29,091 bases of DNA from a virus, in IMG/VR virus record IMGVR_UViG_3300010354_000432, positions 1 to 29,091 of that record. One strand, given 5' to 3'. Position 1 is the stretch's first letter; every line of letters starts with the position of its first letter. The translations under genes and the position numbers were made by a program. A model generated the notes under the pieces. That model saw only the letters and a list, made by a program, of their open reading frames with translations, made no database searches and was not told the DNA's origin. Below are positions 3,789 to 28,991 of the stretch, in pieces.

Positions 3789-6494
3789 ATGCTTACTACA
3801 TATCAACCAAATTTATTAATAACTTCAGACTATCAAATAGCAAAACAATTTCTTTTAAATGAAGATCAACAAGTAACTAAAAAAACTTTTAGTGAAATAT
3901 TAGAAACTATTGATCATAGTGATCCAAGAATATTAATATCACCAAAGAAAAATAATCAATATTTTGAATCTTTTGATTATAACGTAGGGTATGATCAAAA
4001 TGAAATATTTTCTATTAACGTAAATTTTGTTGATGTTAATTATGACTTTGAGAGTTTATTTTTAAAGTTTATTTTTTCAGAAGAAGATTTTAGGAATAAA
4101 GTAAAAGAATATGTAGACAAAAGATCAACCGCTGATCTTAAAAGTATAGTTAATTTTGGAGAAACCACTATTGGAAATCTTACAAATGAATATTTACAAA
4201 GCATTAATGATAAATTTTCATTTAATAGAACTTTTTATTTTGTATTTGGTATAAACAATACTTACAATTCAGTAATTGCTTCTAATTACATATACTCAGA
4301 AGTAAGTCAGTCTTCAGAAGGTTTTAAAAAATTAAAAGTAAATTTTCAAAATACAGGTAATCCTTTAGTTTTATCTAATTTAAACAAATTACAAATTAAT
4401 AAAAGTAGTTTGACTTCAATTTTATCAGACTCTTCTTATAAAGTATATTCTCTTTATAATTATGAAGATCGGGTCGATTTAATAAAAATAGTAAAAGAAA
4501 AAAAATTAGATAAATTTTTAAAAAGAATTATTAAGAAAATTTTTAGTAAAATTACAAGAAGAGAGATAATAATTTTATTGCCAGATTTTGATAGACTATA
4601 TCAAAATTTTAAAGACAGTAATTCAAAGTCTTCTAGAACAAGAGCACTAATAACACCATCTTTACAGGTCAACCCAGACGCAAAATTATTAGAAACTTTT
4701 AGTAATGCTAAAGAATATTTTACAATTGTTGAATTTTTAAATAGACTGGGAATGACTATTGAAACTGATTTATATAAAAGTTTACAAAATTTTGAGTCAA
4801 CGGTTCCACAAGAAATTCTAAAAAAATTAGAAGATTTTAAAAATAATGAAACAATCAAAGACCTTATAAAAAGAAATACATTAGGAGTTTCTTCATTGGG
4901 TGAGACAGAAACAATTAGGCAAGAATTTCTTAAAAATTTAATTGGTTATTATGTTTATAGAACTCCTAAATATAAAGATTTTTTAGATCCTGACGGCACC
5001 ATATTAAACCCTAATACTAATGCAGAAAAAAGATTAGAAGAAATAATAGAATTACTTAAAAAAAGAGAGAATATAAATACTGTAGATGGATTAGTTGAAA
5101 AAATTATTAGTATTGAACTTAATGATCTGTTTTCTAACATAGGATTAACTCCTGCCAAAAAAAGTGAAGAACTTGATTTGTCTGAAAAATTTCAAGAAAA
5201 GTTTACTAATACAAAAATTAGTTTTGTAATTATAAATAAAACTGATGGAACTTCTTACGATACTGAAAATGTTGCCCCCCAGATAAAAGGTTTTATAAAT
5301 TTTGAATCTTTTATAAGTCAATTTTCAAATAAATTGTCTTATCTTTGGGGAGGATTTCCTTTTAAAATAGGATTTTTTGAAGAAAATGATTTAAAAAGAT
5401 TAGAAATTTTACACGAAACTGCCAAAGACACTTATGAAGATTTATACGTTACTTTACCTTTAGTTAGGGATGTAACTAATGGAGCGATTGTCATTGCAGA
5501 TGATTTCTTATTAAGAAATTTATATCTTCCAGTTACAAAAGTTGAAGATAAAATTATTATTAGAAATTTTCCCGTATCAAATGATGATATGTATAATTTT
5601 GGAGAAGATTCAGCTTATCAAGAAATACTTAGAAAAAGAAAAAAAGACTTAAAAAAATATATAAATTCTTCTTTTAATGAAAGTTTAAATACAGATATTC
5701 TTGATTATGCGATGTCTCAGGATACTGATAATTCTAATAATTTTGTATTTCCTGTTTTTGTAGCTAATGATTCTAGGTCTAATGTTTTAAGTTACTCATT
5801 AGAAATTGATAAATTAACTCATACTACATCATATTCTCAATTTATTGAACTTATAAAAAAACAAATTATTACTGAATTTGTTTCTAATAAAGCTGTAAGT
5901 ATATATGGAAGATTTTTAAATTACGAAGAAATTAAAAAAGATTTACAAGGATTTATAAATTCTAAAACAAATAAAGATTTGAATGAAGAATTTTCTAAAA
6001 TTATTTCAAATATTGAAAATGGGTTTGAGCCTTACTATACTTTTGGATCTATAGAACCAGAACTTGCAACAGAACAAATTGATGAATCTTCTAAAATTGC
6101 TGAAGAATTAGTTAATCATTTATATCTACAAATACTAACAGAATTATCACAACAATCTGATAAAAATAATGCTACTTATAAAGTTGTTACGGATATAAAG
6201 TTTAATCCACTGTTAAAAAAGAAACAACTTTTAAGAGAACTATACCAAAAAATGTTTAGAGTATCAATTAAGACATTACCTTTTTTTAATTTTAATAGCA
6301 TAGAAAAATTATATTCTGGAGCTTTTTTAATTATAAAAAATATTACTAACCCTTCTTTTGGTGTAGGAGACACCTATAATTTTTTAACAGGAATTTATCT
6401 TATTCAGTCATTTAGACATGTTATGAATCCAACATCTTGTTATTCTGAATTTATTTTAGTAAAGGATGTGGATATAGGGGGAGTAGAAGGATGA
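3789..6494 (+). CDS. Large baseplate central hub protein (gp27-position)
   Basis: This is a 901-aa protein encoded by one of the most AT-rich stretches of the window, with many Lys, Asn, Ile and Phe codons. Most of it is not recognisable. The C-terminal end reads FGVGDTYNFLTGIYLIQSF, then RHVMNPTSCYSEFILVKD. This matches the usual last strands of contractile-tail hub proteins (gp27/gpD type), where a G-x-Y-x-I-x-x-x-x-H strand is followed by a Y-x-x-x-x-x-L strand. The gene lies between the LysM-type adaptor and the spike and overlaps the spike start by 4 nt, the position expected for the hub. T4 gp27 has 391 aa, so this protein is more than twice as long. No clear Shine-Dalgarno lies before the start. 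Confidence 0.55.
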   Translation: MLTTYQPNLLITSDYQIAKQFLLNEDQQVTKKTFSEILETIDHSDPRILISPKKNNQYFESFDYNVGYDQNEIFSINVNFVDVNYDFESLFLKFIFSEEDFRNKVKEYVDKRSTADLKSIVNFGETTIGNLTNEYLQSINDKFSFNRTFYFVFGINNTYNSVIASNYIYSEVSQSSEGFKKLKVNFQNTGNPLVLSNLNKLQINKSSLTSILSDSSYKVYSLYNYEDRVDLIKIVKEKKLDKFLKRIIKKIFSKITRREIIILLPDFDRLYQNFKDSNSKSSRTRALITPSLQVNPDAKLLETFSNAKEYFTIVEFLNRLGMTIETDLYKSLQNFESTVPQEILKKLEDFKNNETIKDLIKRNTLGVSSLGETETIRQEFLKNLIGYYVYRTPKYKDFLDPDGTILNPNTNAEKRLEEIIELLKKRENINTVDGLVEKIISIELNDLFSNIGLTPAKKSEELDLSEKFQEKFTNTKISFVIINKTDGTSYDTENVAPQIKGFINFESFISQFSNKLSYLWGGFPFKIGFFEENDLKRLEILHETAKDTYEDLYVTLPLVRDVTNGAIVIADDFLLRNLYLPVTKVEDKIIIRNFPVSNDDMYNFGEDSAYQEILRKRKKDLKKYINSSFNESLNTDILDYAMSQDTDNSNNFVFPVFVANDSRSNVLSYSLEIDKLTHTTSYSQFIELIKKQIITEFVSNKAVSIYGRFLNYEEIKKDLQGFINSKTNKDLNEEFSKIISNIENGFEPYYTFGSIEPELATEQIDESSKIAEELVNHLYLQILTELSQQSDKNNATYKVVTDIKFNPLLKKKQLLRELYQKMFRVSIKTLPFFNFNSIEKLYSGAFLIIKNITNPSFGVGDTYNFLTGIYLIQSFRHVMNPTSCYSEFILVKDVDIGGVEG

Positions 6495-7687
6495 ACATTT
6501 ACTTAGCACAGGTTACTTCAAATTTAGATATTAGTAGAACTGGAATAGTCCAAATAGATTGCCCAGAGGAGCCAAGAATTAAAGAAGCAATCTATACGTC
6601 TCCTTACTTTGCTGCTTATACAAAAGGAGGATTTTTCGCAATACCTGAAGAAAACTCTAACATATTAATTGCTTACAATGTTAAGACTAATAAAGCTTAT
6701 TACATATCAACTGTTCTTGATGATGGTGGAGATTTTTATGATGAAAAGTTTCCTGATTCAGAGGACGCATTAGCAAAGTTTGGACTTAGGAGCAATCCTA
6801 TAATCCCAGAACCTTATAGGTTTTATAAAGATTTCAGTCCAGCCGTAATGGCTTTTAAAAATAACGAAGATAATGGACTCGAAATTAGAAAATTTAAAGA
6901 AGAAATAAGATATGTCAATGAAACAAAATTAGTTAATGAAAGAAAGCATCTTACATTAGCTAGCTCTCCAGAAATTGACTCTGTCATTCTTGATAATGGT
7001 CATGGAGATTATTTAAGAATAAAAGGAGAACCTAAATCCGCAACTGGTCTCCCTCTAGAAGGCAGTAGAAGCGTAGAAATGAAAAGTGAATTAGGTCACA
7101 GATATATCACTAATAGAGGTGGTATAGATATAAAAGTTATTGAAGGTAAAGATATAACCATTGAGAATGGTTCCATCGGATTGACAACATTAAATGGAAT
7201 TCTTGGACCTAAGTCAGGTAACATTAATCTTTTTAGTAAATATGCTAATATTAGATTAGCTGCAAAAGGTATCCTAGGAACTCAAGGCTCTGTTATTATT
7301 GAAACCAAAACGAGTGATGTAATAGTTACTAATGCTGCAATAACCATACGAACTGATGCTGGAGCAGAGATAGAGATTAATGGTACTACCGGGGCCATAA
7401 CTTTAAATAGTATATCTAATATATCAATGGAGGCTGCTAATATAAGTCTTGACGCTACCGGAAGCATTCAAATGAGGGCACCTGTAATAAGTATTGGTGG
7501 CACTAATACAACTGCGGTCAATGTTAATTCTACTGCCATAGTTAACATAGACGGGCCTACAGGTCTTTATCTTAATTCTGCACAGTCAATACCAGCCGAA
7601 CCTATCCCAATAGTACCTTCAGCTAATGAAGCAAAAATTACTTATCTAAAGACAGAATACCCTACTGGTGGTAAATATCCTATATAA
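6491..7687 (+). CDS. 5: Baseplate central spike (gp5-like), no lysozyme domain
   Basis: This 398-aa protein has spike architecture. Residues about 1-80 form an OB-fold-like head: MNIYLAQVTSNLD, RTGIVQIDCPEEP, a YTSPYF segment, GGFFAIPEENSNILIAYN and AYYISTVLDDGG, the same strand order as the gp5/VgrG/gpV head that binds the hub. A beta linker follows. Residues about 205-380 are short alternating hydrophobic strands rich in Gly, Asn, Thr and Ser (for example SISNISMEAANISLDATG), the trimeric beta-helical needle. The last 30 residues are Pro-rich and could contact a tip protein. T4 gp5 has a lysozyme domain between head and needle; none is visible here. A strong ribosome site (GAAGG) precedes the ATG, which overlaps the hub stop. 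Confidence 0.8.
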   Translation: MNIYLAQVTSNLDISRTGIVQIDCPEEPRIKEAIYTSPYFAAYTKGGFFAIPEENSNILIAYNVKTNKAYYISTVLDDGGDFYDEKFPDSEDALAKFGLRSNPIIPEPYRFYKDFSPAVMAFKNNEDNGLEIRKFKEEIRYVNETKLVNERKHLTLASSPEIDSVILDNGHGDYLRIKGEPKSATGLPLEGSRSVEMKSELGHRYITNRGGIDIKVIEGKDITIENGSIGLTTLNGILGPKSGNINLFSKYANIRLAAKGILGTQGSVIIETKTSDVIVTNAAITIRTDAGAEIEINGTTGAITLNSISNISMEAANISLDATGSIQMRAPVISIGGTNTTAVNVNSTAIVNIDGPTGLYLNSAQSIPAEPIPIVPSANEAKITYLKTEYPTGGKYPI

Positions 7688-10387: not shown

Positions 10388-10846
10388 ATGGTATTAAACT
10401 CTGAAACTAAAGTTTTTGGTGTACCCTCTACTAACGAGGCCGCATTACGTTCTGGATCAAAAATTCAGAAGTACTATGGTTTAACATTTCCTATAGGAGC
10501 TAACGTAAATTCTGGTTATTTTTCAAAAATAAGCGGTCCAGAACTATTAAAAAGAAATTTAATTCAATTATTGAGAACCTCTAGGGGGGAAAGATTTATG
10601 TTACCTTTATTTGGTACAAATCTTAAAAAGTATTTATTTGAACCCCTAGATGAGTTTTTATTTTTAAAGATTAAAAAAGAGTTAACGGATACAGTAACAC
10701 GTTATGCTCCTTATGTTACAATAGTAAAAATAAATGTTATTCCAACAGACCAGAATCAATTTAGATCAGGTTTGTTTATTAAAATGTATTGTAGTTTAAA
10801 GGAAGAAGCAGATGTTGTGTTTGAAGTTAACCTAGGATTATTATAA
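10388..10846 (+). CDS. 25: Baseplate wedge protein gp25 (GPW/gp25 family)
   Basis: This 152-aa protein shows the family core clearly. FPIGANVNSGYF leads in, then a helix (ELLKRNLIQLLRTS), then RGERFMLPLFGTNLKKYLFE with Pro at residue 86. The R-G-E-R, P-x-F-G-T and E-P elements at about residues 66-86 are the hallmark of gp25, the sheath-initiator and wedge protein conserved in all contractile injection systems; the E-P-R-type fold pairs with the sheath. The length is near T4 gp25 (132 aa). There is no Shine-Dalgarno at the start, which lies 2 nt after the LamG-protein stop. Its stop overlaps the gp6 start (TAATG), coupling the two as in many contractile phages. Confidence 0.93.
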   Translation: MVLNSETKVFGVPSTNEAALRSGSKIQKYYGLTFPIGANVNSGYFSKISGPELLKRNLIQLLRTSRGERFMLPLFGTNLKKYLFEPLDEFLFLKIKKELTDTVTRYAPYVTIVKINVIPTDQNQFRSGLFIKMYCSLKEEADVVFEVNLGLL

Positions 10847-12429
10847 TGGCATTCAATGGATTATTAAATTCGGACTTTTTAAAACAATCTAGGTTAGATG
10901 ATTCTGTAAAAGAATCATTAATAGACTTCACATCCTCAGACTTCTTAACCTTTAGATCTAATTTAATAAAGTATATTCAAGCTGCATATCCGTTAGATTA
11001 CAATTACTTTATTGAATCAGATCTTGGGATGGTTTTAATAGAGCTAGTTGCTGCTATGGGACATGTTATGTCTTATAAAGCAGATTTTTTAGCCAACGAA
11101 AACTACTTGGCAACTGCACAAAAACGAAGCAGTGTAAAGAAACTTTTAGACCTCATAGGAGTTAGAATGAGGGGTCCTTCAAGTGCTGTTGCTAACGGAA
11201 AATTAACTTTAGAATCACCTAGAACATCGGGAACTGTAAGTATTCCTTTAGAATCTAGAGCTTTCACAGTTACGTCCCCAGAAGATAACTCTCAATTAAC
11301 TTATACTTTGTATAAGTATAACCCTAATGGATTTGTTGAATTAGATAACGTAAATGGAGACCTTCAATTTCCTTACACTACTGCAGCAAGCGCAGTAATA
11401 GATTCCATAGTCTTATTAGAAGGTAATCTGGTTCAGCAAACTGGAGTATTTACAGACACTGATGCAGTAAAATCAATAACTTTAAATCAATCTCCAATTA
11501 TTGAGGGAAGCGTTCAAGTTCAAGTTATAAGTCCTATAACTTCTGTTGATGGAAATTACAGACAAATAGATAACATTTTTTTTGCATCAGGAGCAACTGA
11601 TAAAGTTTTTCAATTAGTTACTGATGATAGCTTTGCTGGTACAGTAATTTTTGGAGACAATCAACAAGGGATAGCTCCCGCTGCTGGAGATTCCTTTGTT
11701 GTATACTATCGAATAGGTGGAGGAACTAGAGGTAATATAGCTAAAGGGGTTATCAATGCTCCTGTTATTTATACCTTAGAGGGAGGAGCAACCCAGCAGG
11801 GAATCGTAGAAAATACATCTCTTGGTTCTGGTGGTGTCAATGCTCAAACAATAGAAAACGCCAAGAGGTACGCCCCACAGTACTTTAGATCTCAAGATAG
11901 GCTAGTAACATTAAGCGATTACAAATCATTTGTAAATATGTTTAGGTCTAGTTATGGATCTGTAGGAAAAGCGACCGTAGTCACCAGAAGAGCCTTCTCT
12001 TCAGCAAATATTATTGATCTTTACATTTTGGAGAAAGCAAACGATCTTCAGTTCAAGAGAGCTACACCTCAATTCAAAAAACAACTTTTAGAGGCCATAG
12101 AGCCAAAGAAAATGATAACCGATGAGGTTGTAGTTGTAGATGGGTTAATTAGAACAATTGATCCAATTATAACTGTCAAGTGTGATGCAAAATATAAACA
12201 AAGAGAAGCTGAGATAAAACTAAAAGTACGAAATAAAGTAATTCAATATTTTAATATAGACAATGCCGAATTTGGAAAAACTTTTACTTCTCAAGATTTA
12301 AATACTAAAATTTTTGAAATATCTGAAGTTAGATACTCAACCCTTGATAACCTACCTTCCGTAATAAATATCCAATTCAATGAAGTGCTCCAGTTAAATA
12401 ACTTAAATATTTTAATGGTATTTGAATAA
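10846..12429 (+). CDS. 6: Baseplate wedge protein gp6 (baseplate J-like)
   Basis: This 527-aa protein follows gp25 directly. Residues about 30-110 hold the characteristic N-terminal block: SDFLTFRSNLIKYIQAAYP, then a stretch with ESDLGMVLIELVAAMGHVMS, YKADFLANENYLATAQ and the helix RSSVKKLLDLIGVRMRG. The middle is beta-rich, with FGDNQQGIAPAAGDSFVVYY and YRIGGGTRGNIA, the usual J-like core signature. The end has DRLVTLSDYKSFVNMF and later strands. gp6/gpJ proteins form the ring that ties wedges around the hub and triggers sheath contraction. T4 gp6 has 660 aa, so this one is somewhat shorter. It is coupled on both sides by 1-nt stop/start overlaps. Confidence 0.85.
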   Translation: MAFNGLLNSDFLKQSRLDDSVKESLIDFTSSDFLTFRSNLIKYIQAAYPLDYNYFIESDLGMVLIELVAAMGHVMSYKADFLANENYLATAQKRSSVKKLLDLIGVRMRGPSSAVANGKLTLESPRTSGTVSIPLESRAFTVTSPEDNSQLTYTLYKYNPNGFVELDNVNGDLQFPYTTAASAVIDSIVLLEGNLVQQTGVFTDTDAVKSITLNQSPIIEGSVQVQVISPITSVDGNYRQIDNIFFASGATDKVFQLVTDDSFAGTVIFGDNQQGIAPAAGDSFVVYYRIGGGTRGNIAKGVINAPVIYTLEGGATQQGIVENTSLGSGGVNAQTIENAKRYAPQYFRSQDRLVTLSDYKSFVNMFRSSYGSVGKATVVTRRAFSSANIIDLYILEKANDLQFKRATPQFKKQLLEAIEPKKMITDEVVVVDGLIRTIDPIITVKCDAKYKQREAEIKLKVRNKVIQYFNIDNAEFGKTFTSQDLNTKIFEISEVRYSTLDNLPSVINIQFNEVLQLNNLNILMVFE

Positions 12430-24160: not shown

Positions 24161-27100
24161 ATGCCGACTACTCCCCGGGTTTTTAACTGTGGTGAATTTA
24201 AACCATTTAGGTACTTTCCACTACCAGTCCCGGGAGGTGGAGCAGGGTCCATTGTAATATATGGCCCTACTGGACCTGTAGACCCTTGGGTACCTCAACC
24301 ATCTGAGCGGTGGGTTTGTGTTTGTAAATCCGAAATTACACCTTTAGGAGGTTGTACAGAAAGAGCTAGCAGAGAGTGTGTTAGAATAGAAAATGCTGGA
24401 TCTTACCCTAGATCTGATCAAGTATATGCGTCAAAGGCAGCATGTGAGTCAGGAGCTTTCGATGAAAGACCTTGTCAACTTTCTTTGTTCCAATGTGTAG
24501 AAAACCAACAATCATGCACTCCTCCTTTATATGGAACTATAGTTAACAGAAGGTGTGTTGAGTTACCTCCTGTCCGAGAAAGACCCACTCCTTTTCCACC
24601 AAACATATATGATACTTTAGGAAGATGCAACTTATCTTGTAACACAGTTAATAATTGTGTAAGCAAGCCCGATCCTTTTAAACCAGAAATTAGTAACCCT
24701 GCTGGAACCGAAAGACCTAGACAAGGATATAAGTGTGTAGTATATACCAGTCAGTCGTGCCCTGATAATAACAGCGTTCAAATATCTATCAGAAGATGCG
24801 TACCTTGTGTTTATGATGGGTCTGATCCAGAATGTATTTATAACACAGAGTCTACCTGCACTCAAGCATGTCAAAATGATAGTTGTAGGTATAAATGTGT
24901 AGAATATACCAGAGAATGTCCCTTACCTCCTTTACAGGTTACTGGGACTATCTGTCAACAATGTAAATATGATCCTTATGATCCTACTACTGCTAGTTGT
25001 AATAAACAACAAGGATGTAATGGAAGTTGTTTTGAGGCTAGGTGTACTGATATAACAGTAACAAGTGTAGGGAGCGTTGGAGTCTACACTCCTCCCAGAC
25101 CTGTAGATACGGGTATTGTTCTAAACGATCCTTATTTAGTAAGATATAAAGGAGTTGTTGAAAGAGGCATTCCATCCTGTAGACAATGCACTCAGACAGA
25201 GATTTATAATCTTAACGGAGCTACAACATGCCGTTATACTAGTTTGCAGCAGTGTATTGAATTGTTTTTAATGGTAAGTAACCAGCCGTTTGATCCAGTT
25301 AATCCATTAAATTTAACTGGAGTAGACGCTACAGTTGAAGTTGATTTAGGGTTAAATCAACAAAACTCTATTTCAAAAGAACTTTTTGTAGCAGATAAAA
25401 ATAAAGATACAAATATTTATAATCCTGTTTACAACTTTTTTAGTTATCAACCAAACACAAAAACTTATTACGTTGTTAATCCTTATTACTTAAGTATTTT
25501 TAATAAATATGTATCTAATGAAGTTTACACAGTTTTGTCTAGAAATGCTAAACAAGAAATTTATTGGAATGAAAAATTATTTTCTGATATAACTAACGCT
25601 AAGATTGCAATAAGTCTAAATGTAGATCTATTAAAGGCAATTAATTCACTTCACGGTGTCGATAATACTTTAATAAGTCCAGAAAACATTTTTGCTGCTA
25701 TAAAACAATTACTTTTACAGAACAGGTTAAATGAATTTGATCCAAATTTTTACATAAACTTATCTAACAAACAAAAAAATGATCCTAAGGTTGTGTATAA
25801 ATATAATTCTTCTAAGGATGTTTTAGAAAGAGCAGGGCTAGGAATTCTTTCAGAAGGATCTATTCCAGCAGATGCTAATCAACATACTGATGAAAATAAA
25901 TTTAGATTATTTAGACAAAAGAGATTAAATACAGACATCAATACAAGATTAAAAGTAACAACTGATCAGGACTATGAGATCCCCTATCATGATGCGGGGC
26001 TTGCAATATATCAAACGGATGCCTCCACATTAGAAACTTTTATCCCAATGGGAACAGGTGACGGTTACTTCCTTCCTTACTACAATGAAGAAGAAGTTAT
26101 TAAGATACCTTTGAATACAGAAATAGCTAGAGCTTTATATGTTCCTCAAAATGTTCGTTACGCTGCTTTAAAAGCATTTAGAGAAACACCTGACATTATA
26201 TTTAATGTTTCTTCATTAGAAAACCAACACGAATTTATTCCTTCTTATGAATTAACTAGTGTACTGTCTCCAATGTACTTTGCGTTAGATCTTTCTAGCA
26301 TAGAAGACCTACCAAAAAGTAATCCTCTTGTTGATAGAATTAAAGCAAAGTATAGATTACTTACAAATGAAGAAGAAATTCAATCTCACGTTTATAATTA
26401 TGGGTTTAGTGTAGTAAGATTAAACTTAGATTATCGGGATCCTTTTGCACATTATGCCAAGGAAACTGGAATATTTGATCTAACCCAAAACGATATTACA
26501 TTCAGATATTTTAATATAAACTTAAGTGGAACTCTTAATGATTCCTCAATATTGACTAGAAGTTTACCTTTTGGAATTGTTGTTATCCCGGGTTGTGGAT
26601 CTAAGCATAATCCCTATCATGGAAAGTCTAAGATAAGCAAAATAAATAATACTTTTGTAGAAAGAAGTTTTATTGGTCAGGCTTCTATAGATTTTTCTAA
26701 TTATTATTCTTATGAGTCTGATGTATTAAGTTCGATATCAACAGAATCATTAGAAATCAATTTACCTGAAGATCATTACGGTTATGCAAATAAATTTTAT
26801 TATGTATACAATCCAACCATGTATATTAATACTTATTTTAATAAAATATATCAATCAACAGAACCAACAAATTTAAATAAGTCTAAACCTGTAACTTCAT
26901 ATTTAGTTAATAATATAATAGACAATTTAATTATCGGTTACAATCCTTTAGAATTAAAATGGTTTGATGTTTATTCAAGATTAAAAGCACAGGAAGTGGC
27001 TGAACTTTTATATGAAGGAACAAAAGACTTTTACAATCTTTTAGAAGGTGGTTGGCGGAGTGTCAACATAAAACCTTTATTAAGGTCAGAAAAAGATAGA

Positions 27101-27193
27101 GTAACTTATATAGATTCTACAATAATACCAGAGGTCGAAGTTCCACAACCTATTATAAATAAGGATAATAGATTCAATGGCATTACTTCTTAG
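24161..27193 (+). CDS. Large structural protein with Cys-rich repeat head, 1010 aa
   Basis: The first 50 residues are Pro/Gly/aromatic-rich (RYFPLPVPGGGAGS, YGPTGPVDPWVPQP). Residues about 53-365 contain 33 of the protein's 34 Cys, counting Cys10. They form about five loosely repeated units of 45-55 residues: an aromatic-x-C-V start, a C-x-x-C or paired Cys, and a Tyr/Thr-rich stretch before further Cys. Units starting at YKCVVYTSQSC (190) and YKCVEYTRECP (245) are the clearest. Residues about 370-1010 are Asn/Tyr/Lys-rich with only one Cys (PGCG near 810) and look like a long beta-rich structural body. No signal peptide or enzyme motif is visible. The gene is the penultimate member of the tail operon. 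A role in host contact is inferred. It starts 4 nt after the previous stop, with no clear Shine-Dalgarno. Confidence 0.65.
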   Translation: MPTTPRVFNCGEFKPFRYFPLPVPGGGAGSIVIYGPTGPVDPWVPQPSERWVCVCKSEITPLGGCTERASRECVRIENAGSYPRSDQVYASKAACESGAFDERPCQLSLFQCVENQQSCTPPLYGTIVNRRCVELPPVRERPTPFPPNIYDTLGRCNLSCNTVNNCVSKPDPFKPEISNPAGTERPRQGYKCVVYTSQSCPDNNSVQISIRRCVPCVYDGSDPECIYNTESTCTQACQNDSCRYKCVEYTRECPLPPLQVTGTICQQCKYDPYDPTTASCNKQQGCNGSCFEARCTDITVTSVGSVGVYTPPRPVDTGIVLNDPYLVRYKGVVERGIPSCRQCTQTEIYNLNGATTCRYTSLQQCIELFLMVSNQPFDPVNPLNLTGVDATVEVDLGLNQQNSISKELFVADKNKDTNIYNPVYNFFSYQPNTKTYYVVNPYYLSIFNKYVSNEVYTVLSRNAKQEIYWNEKLFSDITNAKIAISLNVDLLKAINSLHGVDNTLISPENIFAAIKQLLLQNRLNEFDPNFYINLSNKQKNDPKVVYKYNSSKDVLERAGLGILSEGSIPADANQHTDENKFRLFRQKRLNTDINTRLKVTTDQDYEIPYHDAGLAIYQTDASTLETFIPMGTGDGYFLPYYNEEEVIKIPLNTEIARALYVPQNVRYAALKAFRETPDIIFNVSSLENQHEFIPSYELTSVLSPMYFALDLSSIEDLPKSNPLVDRIKAKYRLLTNEEEIQSHVYNYGFSVVRLNLDYRDPFAHYAKETGIFDLTQNDITFRYFNINLSGTLNDSSILTRSLPFGIVVIPGCGSKHNPYHGKSKISKINNTFVERSFIGQASIDFSNYYSYESDVLSSISTESLEINLPEDHYGYANKFYYVYNPTMYINTYFNKIYQSTEPTNLNKSKPVTSYLVNNIIDNLIIGYNPLELKWFDVYSRLKAQEVAELLYEGTKDFYNLLEGGWRSVNIKPLLRSEKDRVTYIDSTIIPEVEVPQPIINKDNRFNGITS
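24317..25255 (+). repeat. Cys-rich protein repeats, about five units
   Basis: This marks codons 53-365 of the 1010-aa protein. Cys positions visible: 53, 55, 65, 73, 95, 105, 112, 119, 132, 156, 160, 166, 192, 200, 213, 216, 225, 233, 237, 242, 246, 253, 265, 268, 280, 286, 290, 295, 340, 343, 357 and 365. The C-x-x-C pairs at 213/216, 265/268 and 340/343 fall at the same place in three units. The repeats are diverged at the DNA level. Confidence 0.7.
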
Positions 27194-27551
27194 CTTTAAT
27201 GATGCAGTTCTTAGTGATGGAGATCCCACTGCTATTACAGTAAATCCTTCTTTACTTAATGAGCTTTGTCCATTACCTACTAGAAATATATTTGTTGGAC
27301 CTTCAAAGAGCCCCGCAGTAGTTGCGGGGGATTCATTCTATTCTCACACTAGGGCTATAGTCAACGTTCACCCAGACTCAATAGCAGCTTCTAGATCTTT
27401 GTTTAATGTATTTGCGGGGCCTACAAGAGTTTTTGTGATTACTACGGGGGATAGTATAATACCATCCTATGAAAGACCCTTTACTGGTTGTACTATTCCT
27501 GTGATAGCTTTATTTGTACCTTCCTCTAATAATGTATTTGTAGGATTTTAA
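27177..27551 (+). CDS. Candidate PAAR-like spike-tip protein, 124 aa
   Basis: Residues 37-53 (NIFVGPSKSPAVVAGDS) and 77-93 (NVFAGPTRVFVITTGDS) align without gaps as N-(I/V)-F-x-G-P-x-x-x-x-x-V/I-x-x-G-D-S. A third NVFVGF ends the protein (119-124), and an extra G-D-P lies at 15-17. PAAR proteins are built in the same way: three repeats of a Val-Phe-Val strand, a turn and a strand ending G-D, folded into a cone with metal-binding Cys/His at the tip. Here the only Cys and His are C31, H57, H65 and C105, all in the loops between strands. T4 gp5.4 (97 aa) is the comparable spike tip. The start lies 17 nt inside the upstream gene, with an AGGAT ribosome site. This is an inference from pattern, not a confirmed match. 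Confidence 0.55.
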   Translation: MALLLSFNDAVLSDGDPTAITVNPSLLNELCPLPTRNIFVGPSKSPAVVAGDSFYSHTRAIVNVHPDSIAASRSLFNVFAGPTRVFVITTGDSIIPSYERPFTGCTIPVIALFVPSSNNVFVGF

Positions 27552-27633: not shown

Positions 27634-28167
27634 ATGGCAAAACGTTTAGACGATAATCAAGACTTTATTAACACTATTCTCAATGAGGCTAACTGGAGTC
27701 AAGCTAACATTAAAGTTAAGCTCAATGAGAATACCACTGAGACTGAAGCCGCCCCAGAAGCAGCACAGGAGACTGAGCAAGTAGTTGAGAGCGATGAAGA
27801 AATCTCTCTATCCTACGATGCTTGCCCACTGTGCGAATCTTCATTAGAGAGTGATGATGTTATATTTGAGAATATTGATACTCACTTCAATAATCTTCTT
27901 AACATTGTTAGCAAGGCTCAAGCCATTCAAGAGGGCGAGGACGCTGATGGTGAATTAGTAGTTGAGTCAATAACTGAAGATGGTTGCTGCCCCCTCTGTG
28001 AATCAGTCGTAGAGAATGACGAAGTTATTATGGCTAACATGAACGAGCACTTTGATGTCGTTCTTGAAATGTTAGACGAGTTAAATGAAGGCTACGGAAG
28101 CAAAAAGCCAAAGACTAAAACAGGAATGCCTGCTCCAAAAGTAGGGAATAAGCCCAAGAAGGGCTGA
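27634..28167 (+). CDS. Acidic protein with duplicated CPLC...H motif, presumed prohead component, 177 aa
   Basis: Two copies of the same motif are visible: C64-P-L-C67 with H84, and C119-P-L-C122 with H139. The His lies 17 residues after the second Cys in both, and surrounding residues agree (CPLCESSLESDDVIFEN against CPLCESVVENDEVIMAN). Each copy supplies three likely zinc ligands; a fourth is not obvious. The region before is acidic (about residues 31-60), the C-terminus is Lys-rich (SKKPKTKTGMPAPKVGNKPK). Sequences L16-N-E|A, I98-Q-E|G and L150-N-E|G fit the (L/I)-x-E cleavage consensus of gp21 protease. It is the first gene of the head module, after a late promoter candidate; in T4 this position holds gp67/gp68-type prohead core proteins. 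Head-core function is inferred from position. Confidence 0.6.
   Translation: MAKRLDDNQDFINTILNEANWSQANIKVKLNENTTETEAAPEAAQETEQVVESDEEISLSYDACPLCESSLESDDVIFENIDTHFNNLLNIVSKAQAIQEGEDADGELVVESITEDGCCPLCESVVENDEVIMANMNEHFDVVLEMLDELNEGYGSKKPKTKTGMPAPKVGNKPKKG
27823..28050 (+). repeat. Two CPLC-x16-H repeats in the 177-aa protein
   Basis: The copies span codons C64 to H84 (27823-27885) and C119 to H139 (27988-28050). Protein identity is high but DNA identity is limited, which suggests an old duplication held by selection on the motif. Confidence 0.7.
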
Positions 28168-28607: not shown

Positions 28608-28991
28608 ATGGATATCTTCTCTCTTATCCTAGAAACAAAAAATGAAATGGCAAGAGGTTCTGCTGAGGGCAGAAATAAAATGCTTACTGCCCCTAAGAGA
28701 GCACACGGAAACCCAACAAAATCAAGAGTAAAAATTTATGCATCAATTATGGATGCATTGAGAAAAGGTTATGTTGGTCAAATGTTTTCAACCCCAGAAG
28801 CAGATAGAATTTATGTAATTACATTACAGAAATGGGGAGACAGTGAGGAGCAAGTTTACTCAGGAAGAATAGCTAAAGGATTTAATAACTTTGCTGATGC
28901 TAAGAAATTCGGAGCAAGAACATTAGTTCGCCACGGAAAATCTACATCATCAAATCTTAAGAAATACTTTAAATCCAAGAGAAAGGATTAA
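28608..28991 (+). CDS. Hypothetical basic head-module protein, 127 aa
   Basis: I do not recognise this protein. It is strongly basic. The N-terminus MDIFSLILETKNEMARG is followed by a Lys/Arg-rich loop (KMLTAPKRAHGNPTKSRVK), a helix (IYASIMDALRKGYVGQMF), a beta segment (RIYVITLQKWGDSEEQVYSG), another helix-turn (NFADAKKFGARTLVRH) and a Lys-rich tail ending KYFKSKRKD. The charge suggests contact with nucleic acid or with an acidic scaffold. It directly precedes the partial gp21-like gene, the position of the basic T4 core protein gp68, but similarity was not established. A weak GTGAG site lies before the start. Confidence 0.55.
   Translation: MDIFSLILETKNEMARGSAEGRNKMLTAPKRAHGNPTKSRVKIYASIMDALRKGYVGQMFSTPEADRIYVITLQKWGDSEEQVYSGRIAKGFNNFADAKKFGARTLVRHGKSTSSNLKKYFKSKRKD

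Follow-up and report, generated by a model that had tools for sequence, protein, structure and literature searches.

Canonical PAAR proteins hold zinc by three His and one Cys (PMC5014421, PMC10715212). Two described stand-alone phage tips, T4 gp5.4 and a Klebsiella phage tip (PDB 4ku0, 5iv5, 9f4b), are built from three repeats and carry two His in loop 1 and one Cys in loop 2. The same was found for the protein described here, which is predicted to have the same fold; it differs from them in its length (124 vs 97 aa), in the absence of the first His and in its longer loops 0 and 2. The T4 tip gene adjoins gene 6 (segC-Gp6 intergenic in the PDB record), whereas the gene under study is separated from the spike gene by about 20 kb. 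The PAAR protein of EAEC T6SS-1 also has a Cys2His2 set, and it stays functional when only its first His is removed (PMC10715212); its Cys residues occupy the second and fourth ligand positions, whereas they would occupy the first and fourth here. An altered ligand set on a PAAR-type fold was likewise described for the DUF4280/IglG PAAR-like family (PMC5014421), which has four Cys and no His; the present protein has two Cys only, and that family was not detected. PHROG 281 and Pfam PF05488 (PAAR motif) share gene slot and alignable ligands with relatives of the gene, while the protein itself falls under detection in both.

The gene and its relatives

The window analysed here was the entire virus record of 29,091 bases, from a T4-like contractile-tail phage with a gp25-like protein at 10388 and a gp6-like protein at 10846. 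The best named-record match of the gp6-like protein (10846-12429) was the 595-kb uncultured phage LR756511 (28% identity), followed by Streptomyces phages. The source may be a large phage. The features discussed below are listed in Table 1.

Table 1. Positions of the putative spike-tip gene, its repeats, candidate ligand codons and associated genes in the window
Feature	Position	Strand	Basis or remark
Central spike (gp5/VgrG-like), presumed partner	6491..7687	+	Fold matches; PHROG matches of relatives
1010-aa protein	24161..27193	+	5' marker of the PAAR slot in relatives
PAAR-like spike-tip protein, 124 aa	27177..27551	+	Slot homology, profiles, model, fold comparison
C31 codon	27267..27269	+	Possible fourth ligand, loop before repeat 1, not conserved
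Repeat 1, residues 37-53	27285..27335	+	NIFVGPSKSPAVVAGDS
H57 codon	27345..27347	+	Canonical loop 1 first His; His in 20/27 slot proteins
H65 codon	27369..27371	+	Canonical loop 1 second His; His in 27/27 slot proteins
Repeat 2, residues 77-93	27405..27455	+	NVFAGPTRVFVITTGDS
C105 codon	27489..27491	+	Canonical loop-2 Cys; Cys in 26/27 slot proteins
Third, short repeat, residues 119-124	27531..27548	+	NVFVGF
CPLCES-motif protein	27634..28167	+	3' marker of the PAAR slot
127-aa anchor gene	28608..28991	+	Directly 5' of gp21-like prohead protease; bait for relatives

The ORF encoding the 124-aa protein was genuine, with an ATG start, an AAGGA 11 bases 5' of the ATG and a 17-base overlap with the end of the upstream 1010-aa gene. 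Two 17-residue repeats and a short third copy had been described in the earlier note, and the comparison with shuffled sequences confirmed the two long ones: the pair starting at residues 37 and 77 was the top ungapped 17-residue self-match (BLOSUM62 score 44, 7 identities), and this score was equalled in 1 of 3000 shuffles (shuffle mean 19.4). A G-D-P is present at residue 15. The note was also right that the protein has exactly four Cys and His residues (C31, H57, H65 and C105), but not that all of them lie in inter-repeat loops; in the AlphaFold2 model, where the repeats are short strands, C31 is N-terminal to repeat 1. A terminator-like hairpin at 27311-27329 inside the gene was rejected, being coding sequence without a T run.

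Searched alone, the 124-aa protein matched nothing in Pfam or PHROGs even at E 1, nor in the PDB and the phage collection, and no confirmed relative was obtained when viral contigs were searched with it. The upstream 1010-aa protein was also unsuccessful as a bait. Relatives were recovered through two downstream anchors, the 127-aa gene and the gp21-like protease, which gave about 100 loci, some sharing contigs. The slot was defined as the interval between the fibre-block protein of about 1000 aa and the CPLCES-motif protein, and many relatives hold a small gene there. Among these, the slot genes of L017, L018 and L020 matched PHROG PAAR at 1e-8, 3e-15 and 6e-18, respectively; the L020 protein cleared the Pfam PAAR cut-off and that of L018 was just under it, while the slot genes of L043-L049 have diverged to the same degree as the window gene. 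PHROG PAAR was matched by 21 of the 27 aligned slot proteins and Pfam PAAR by 16. The slot genes of the relatives grade into recognised PAAR proteins. Five of the seven members of the window clade had no PHROG PAAR match even at E 1, and the six clade relatives were only 24-36% identical to the window protein, with the frame intact in all seven. Ligand residues conserved at this level of identity point to visible selection.

In many relatives the slot PAAR domain carries a C-terminal extension of about 170 aa (L018:3315-4124, L023:3900-4760, L024:3877-4776, L028:3970-4803 and others), unlike in jumbo phages, for which a stand-alone form has been reported (PMC7824862). As for the flanking genes, 33 of the 34 Cys of the 1010-aa protein fall within its first 365 residues, which is odd for a phage structural protein, and some relatives are likewise Cys-rich in this N-terminal region. 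The protein on the other side is acidic, with two CPLCES-type CxxC motifs and a weak Pfam zinc-hook match, and is kept beside the slot in most relatives, even those without a PAAR gene.

Profile and fold comparison

A profile trained without the window clade gave the window protein 21.3 bits. The highest of 14,000 shuffles scored 12.3 bits, a maximum that none of the other window ORFs reached. A stricter training set lowered the held-out score to 11.2 bits, equal to the best shuffle, so the single-sequence evidence for PAAR homology is marginal. The comparison of the clade profile with the PAAR profile by hhalign gave a probability of 95% (E 2e-8). Homology to accepted PAAR members was thus established through intermediates and not by a direct match of the window protein.

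Against the PDB, the joint slot profile, in which recognised PAAR proteins were present, found the Klebsiella phage tip (4e-14), T4 gp5.4 (3e-13), E. coli c1882 (2e-10) and VCA0105 (7e-7), while the clade profile alone gave three matches only, all of them weak (E 0.012-0.25) and all gp5.4-type tips. The AlphaFold2 model, built from 27 sequences, was of middling confidence (pTM 0.72, mean pLDDT 74). Its top five Foldseek matches were solved PAAR-type tips (Klebsiella phage, T4 gp5.4, P1, VCA0105 and c1882; probability 0.96-1.00), the sixth having a probability of 0.07, and the E-values were weak, 0.012 at best. Because recognised PAAR proteins also sat in the model alignment, the PDB-profile, model and Foldseek results are not fully independent of the PAAR hypothesis, and the fold result agrees with it without being independent support. 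The three-repeat PAAR fold was present in the predicted model only. The reading as a PAAR-like, gp5.4-type tip was upheld by synteny with recognised PAAR genes, profiles and fold comparison alike.

Candidate metal ligands

Of the four canonical PAAR ligands, three have their columns occupied by H57, H65 and C105 in the alignment of 27 slot proteins. The canonical first His (GH motif) was lost in all seven members of the window clade, leaving a conserved His-His-Cys triad; H57 and C105 were retained by the six relatives, each of which carries a pair of His in loop 1 and one Cys in loop 2. The C31 column holds Cys in the window protein only; the loop contains a His in L043 and, in the five remaining clade members, neither of the two. 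Because C31 is private to the window protein, Cys2His2 is a trait of this one sequence and not a conserved site. It had been put forward as an unusual feature, which did not hold, as the EAEC T6SS PAAR provides an earlier example of a Cys2His2 zinc site (PMC10715212) and C31 is unconserved in the nearest relatives. The clade-wide loss of the first ligand agrees with the bench evidence of its dispensability. The window tip protein may bind metal.

Gene position and the spike

In the window the spike and PAAR genes are 19.5 kb apart; in the relatives whose contig includes both genes (n = 11) the distance was 18.8-21.9 kb. No annotated spike gene adjoins the PAAR genes of phiM7, P-HM2 and S-B68; the gene is near gp25 and gp6 in P-HM2 and beside a homing endonuclease in phiM7. 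The location, which had been regarded as unusual, is therefore the rule in this group. A G-P turn after a repeat, also taken for an oddity, was found in the relatives L043, L044 and L045 as well as in three more distant ones (L107, L109 and L102), and it marks some sub-lineages rather than the window protein alone.

The presumed spike consists of an N-terminal beta domain followed by a repetitive beta-prism. Its model was poor (pTM 0.27), with contractile-injection spikes as top fold matches, and its relatives matched a PHROG hub/lysozyme family. No His or Cys occurs beyond residue 203 of its 398 residues, and the His-rich metal apex of the P2/R2-pyocin type is absent; the spike would therefore need a separate tip. 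Past the last prism repeat, the spikes of the window clade have a Pro-rich tail ending in EYPxGxK(Y/F) or similar (window 7590-7684; L003, L005, L006, L125, L126). It was present in all four clade members in which both genes were read (window, G004, G014 and G041), which are of one ancestry, so that the pairing of tail and tip counts as one independent case. A distinct tip design, in which a three-ligand (His-His-Cys) PAAR cone is perhaps clamped by this tail, is conceivable but rather unlikely.

The slot was empty, with the same gene order, in L050, L054, L056, L072, L075, L077, L096, L112 and others. No PAAR gene was found elsewhere on the searched empty-slot contigs, which are fragments, so the gene may lie elsewhere. 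The spike C-termini of these relatives tend to be unlike the C-termini found in PAAR carriers. On the spike tree the empty-slot relatives form about two groups, too few for a co-variation test, and the association of the C-terminal motif with PAAR presence was not significant, with two independent changes and a motif picked post hoc.

Discussion

The gene very probably encodes a gp5.4-type PAAR tip, which would cap the spike of the same phage. Homology and fold class, the conserved gene position, the conserved His-His-Cys and a spike without His/Cys apex carry this reading. One copy would fold into a three-sided cone closed by metal and seated on the blunt end of the spike trimer, and upon sheath contraction this tip would be the first part to touch the cell envelope and would act in puncturing it.

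The same fold could instead cap another trimeric beta-prism, that of a tail fibre or of the adjacent 1010-aa protein. The gene does come last in the fibre block and overlap the 1010-aa gene, in a conserved neighbourhood; however, the known solved PAAR proteins sit on gp5, VgrG or equivalent central spikes (PMC10715212, PMC7600766), the 1010-aa protein persists where the PAAR gene is absent, and the central spike here is without a metal apex of its own, which makes such a partner improbable. Chance resemblance, by which a repetitive beta-protein with another function would be mistaken for a tip, could explain why the protein alone matches no family. The slot is shared with recognised PAAR genes, and the concordance of profile, profile-profile and fold evidence leaves this explanation hardly credible.

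A degenerating relic, with the fold kept while metal site and function fade, would agree with the clade-wide loss of the canonical first His and with the five clade members missed by the PHROG PAAR model. Nevertheless, the frame has stayed intact in spite of the low identity, the two loop 1 His and the loop 2 Cys are kept throughout the clade, and the EAEC PAAR tolerates loss of the first His alone (PMC10715212), so that decay of this kind is quite improbable. Most likely, the window gene codes for a PAAR spike tip and occupies the usual place for its phage group; its product, from a marine virus of bacteria, would belong to the known PAAR tip family but has diverged strongly from it.

Our work named a gene that was missed by both Pfam and PHROGs. 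In this phage group the tip gene is regularly found about 20 kb away from its spike, out of reach of a search confined to the neighbours of the spike gene, and the chain of intermediates used here would let annotators detect such tips in uncultured marine phages.
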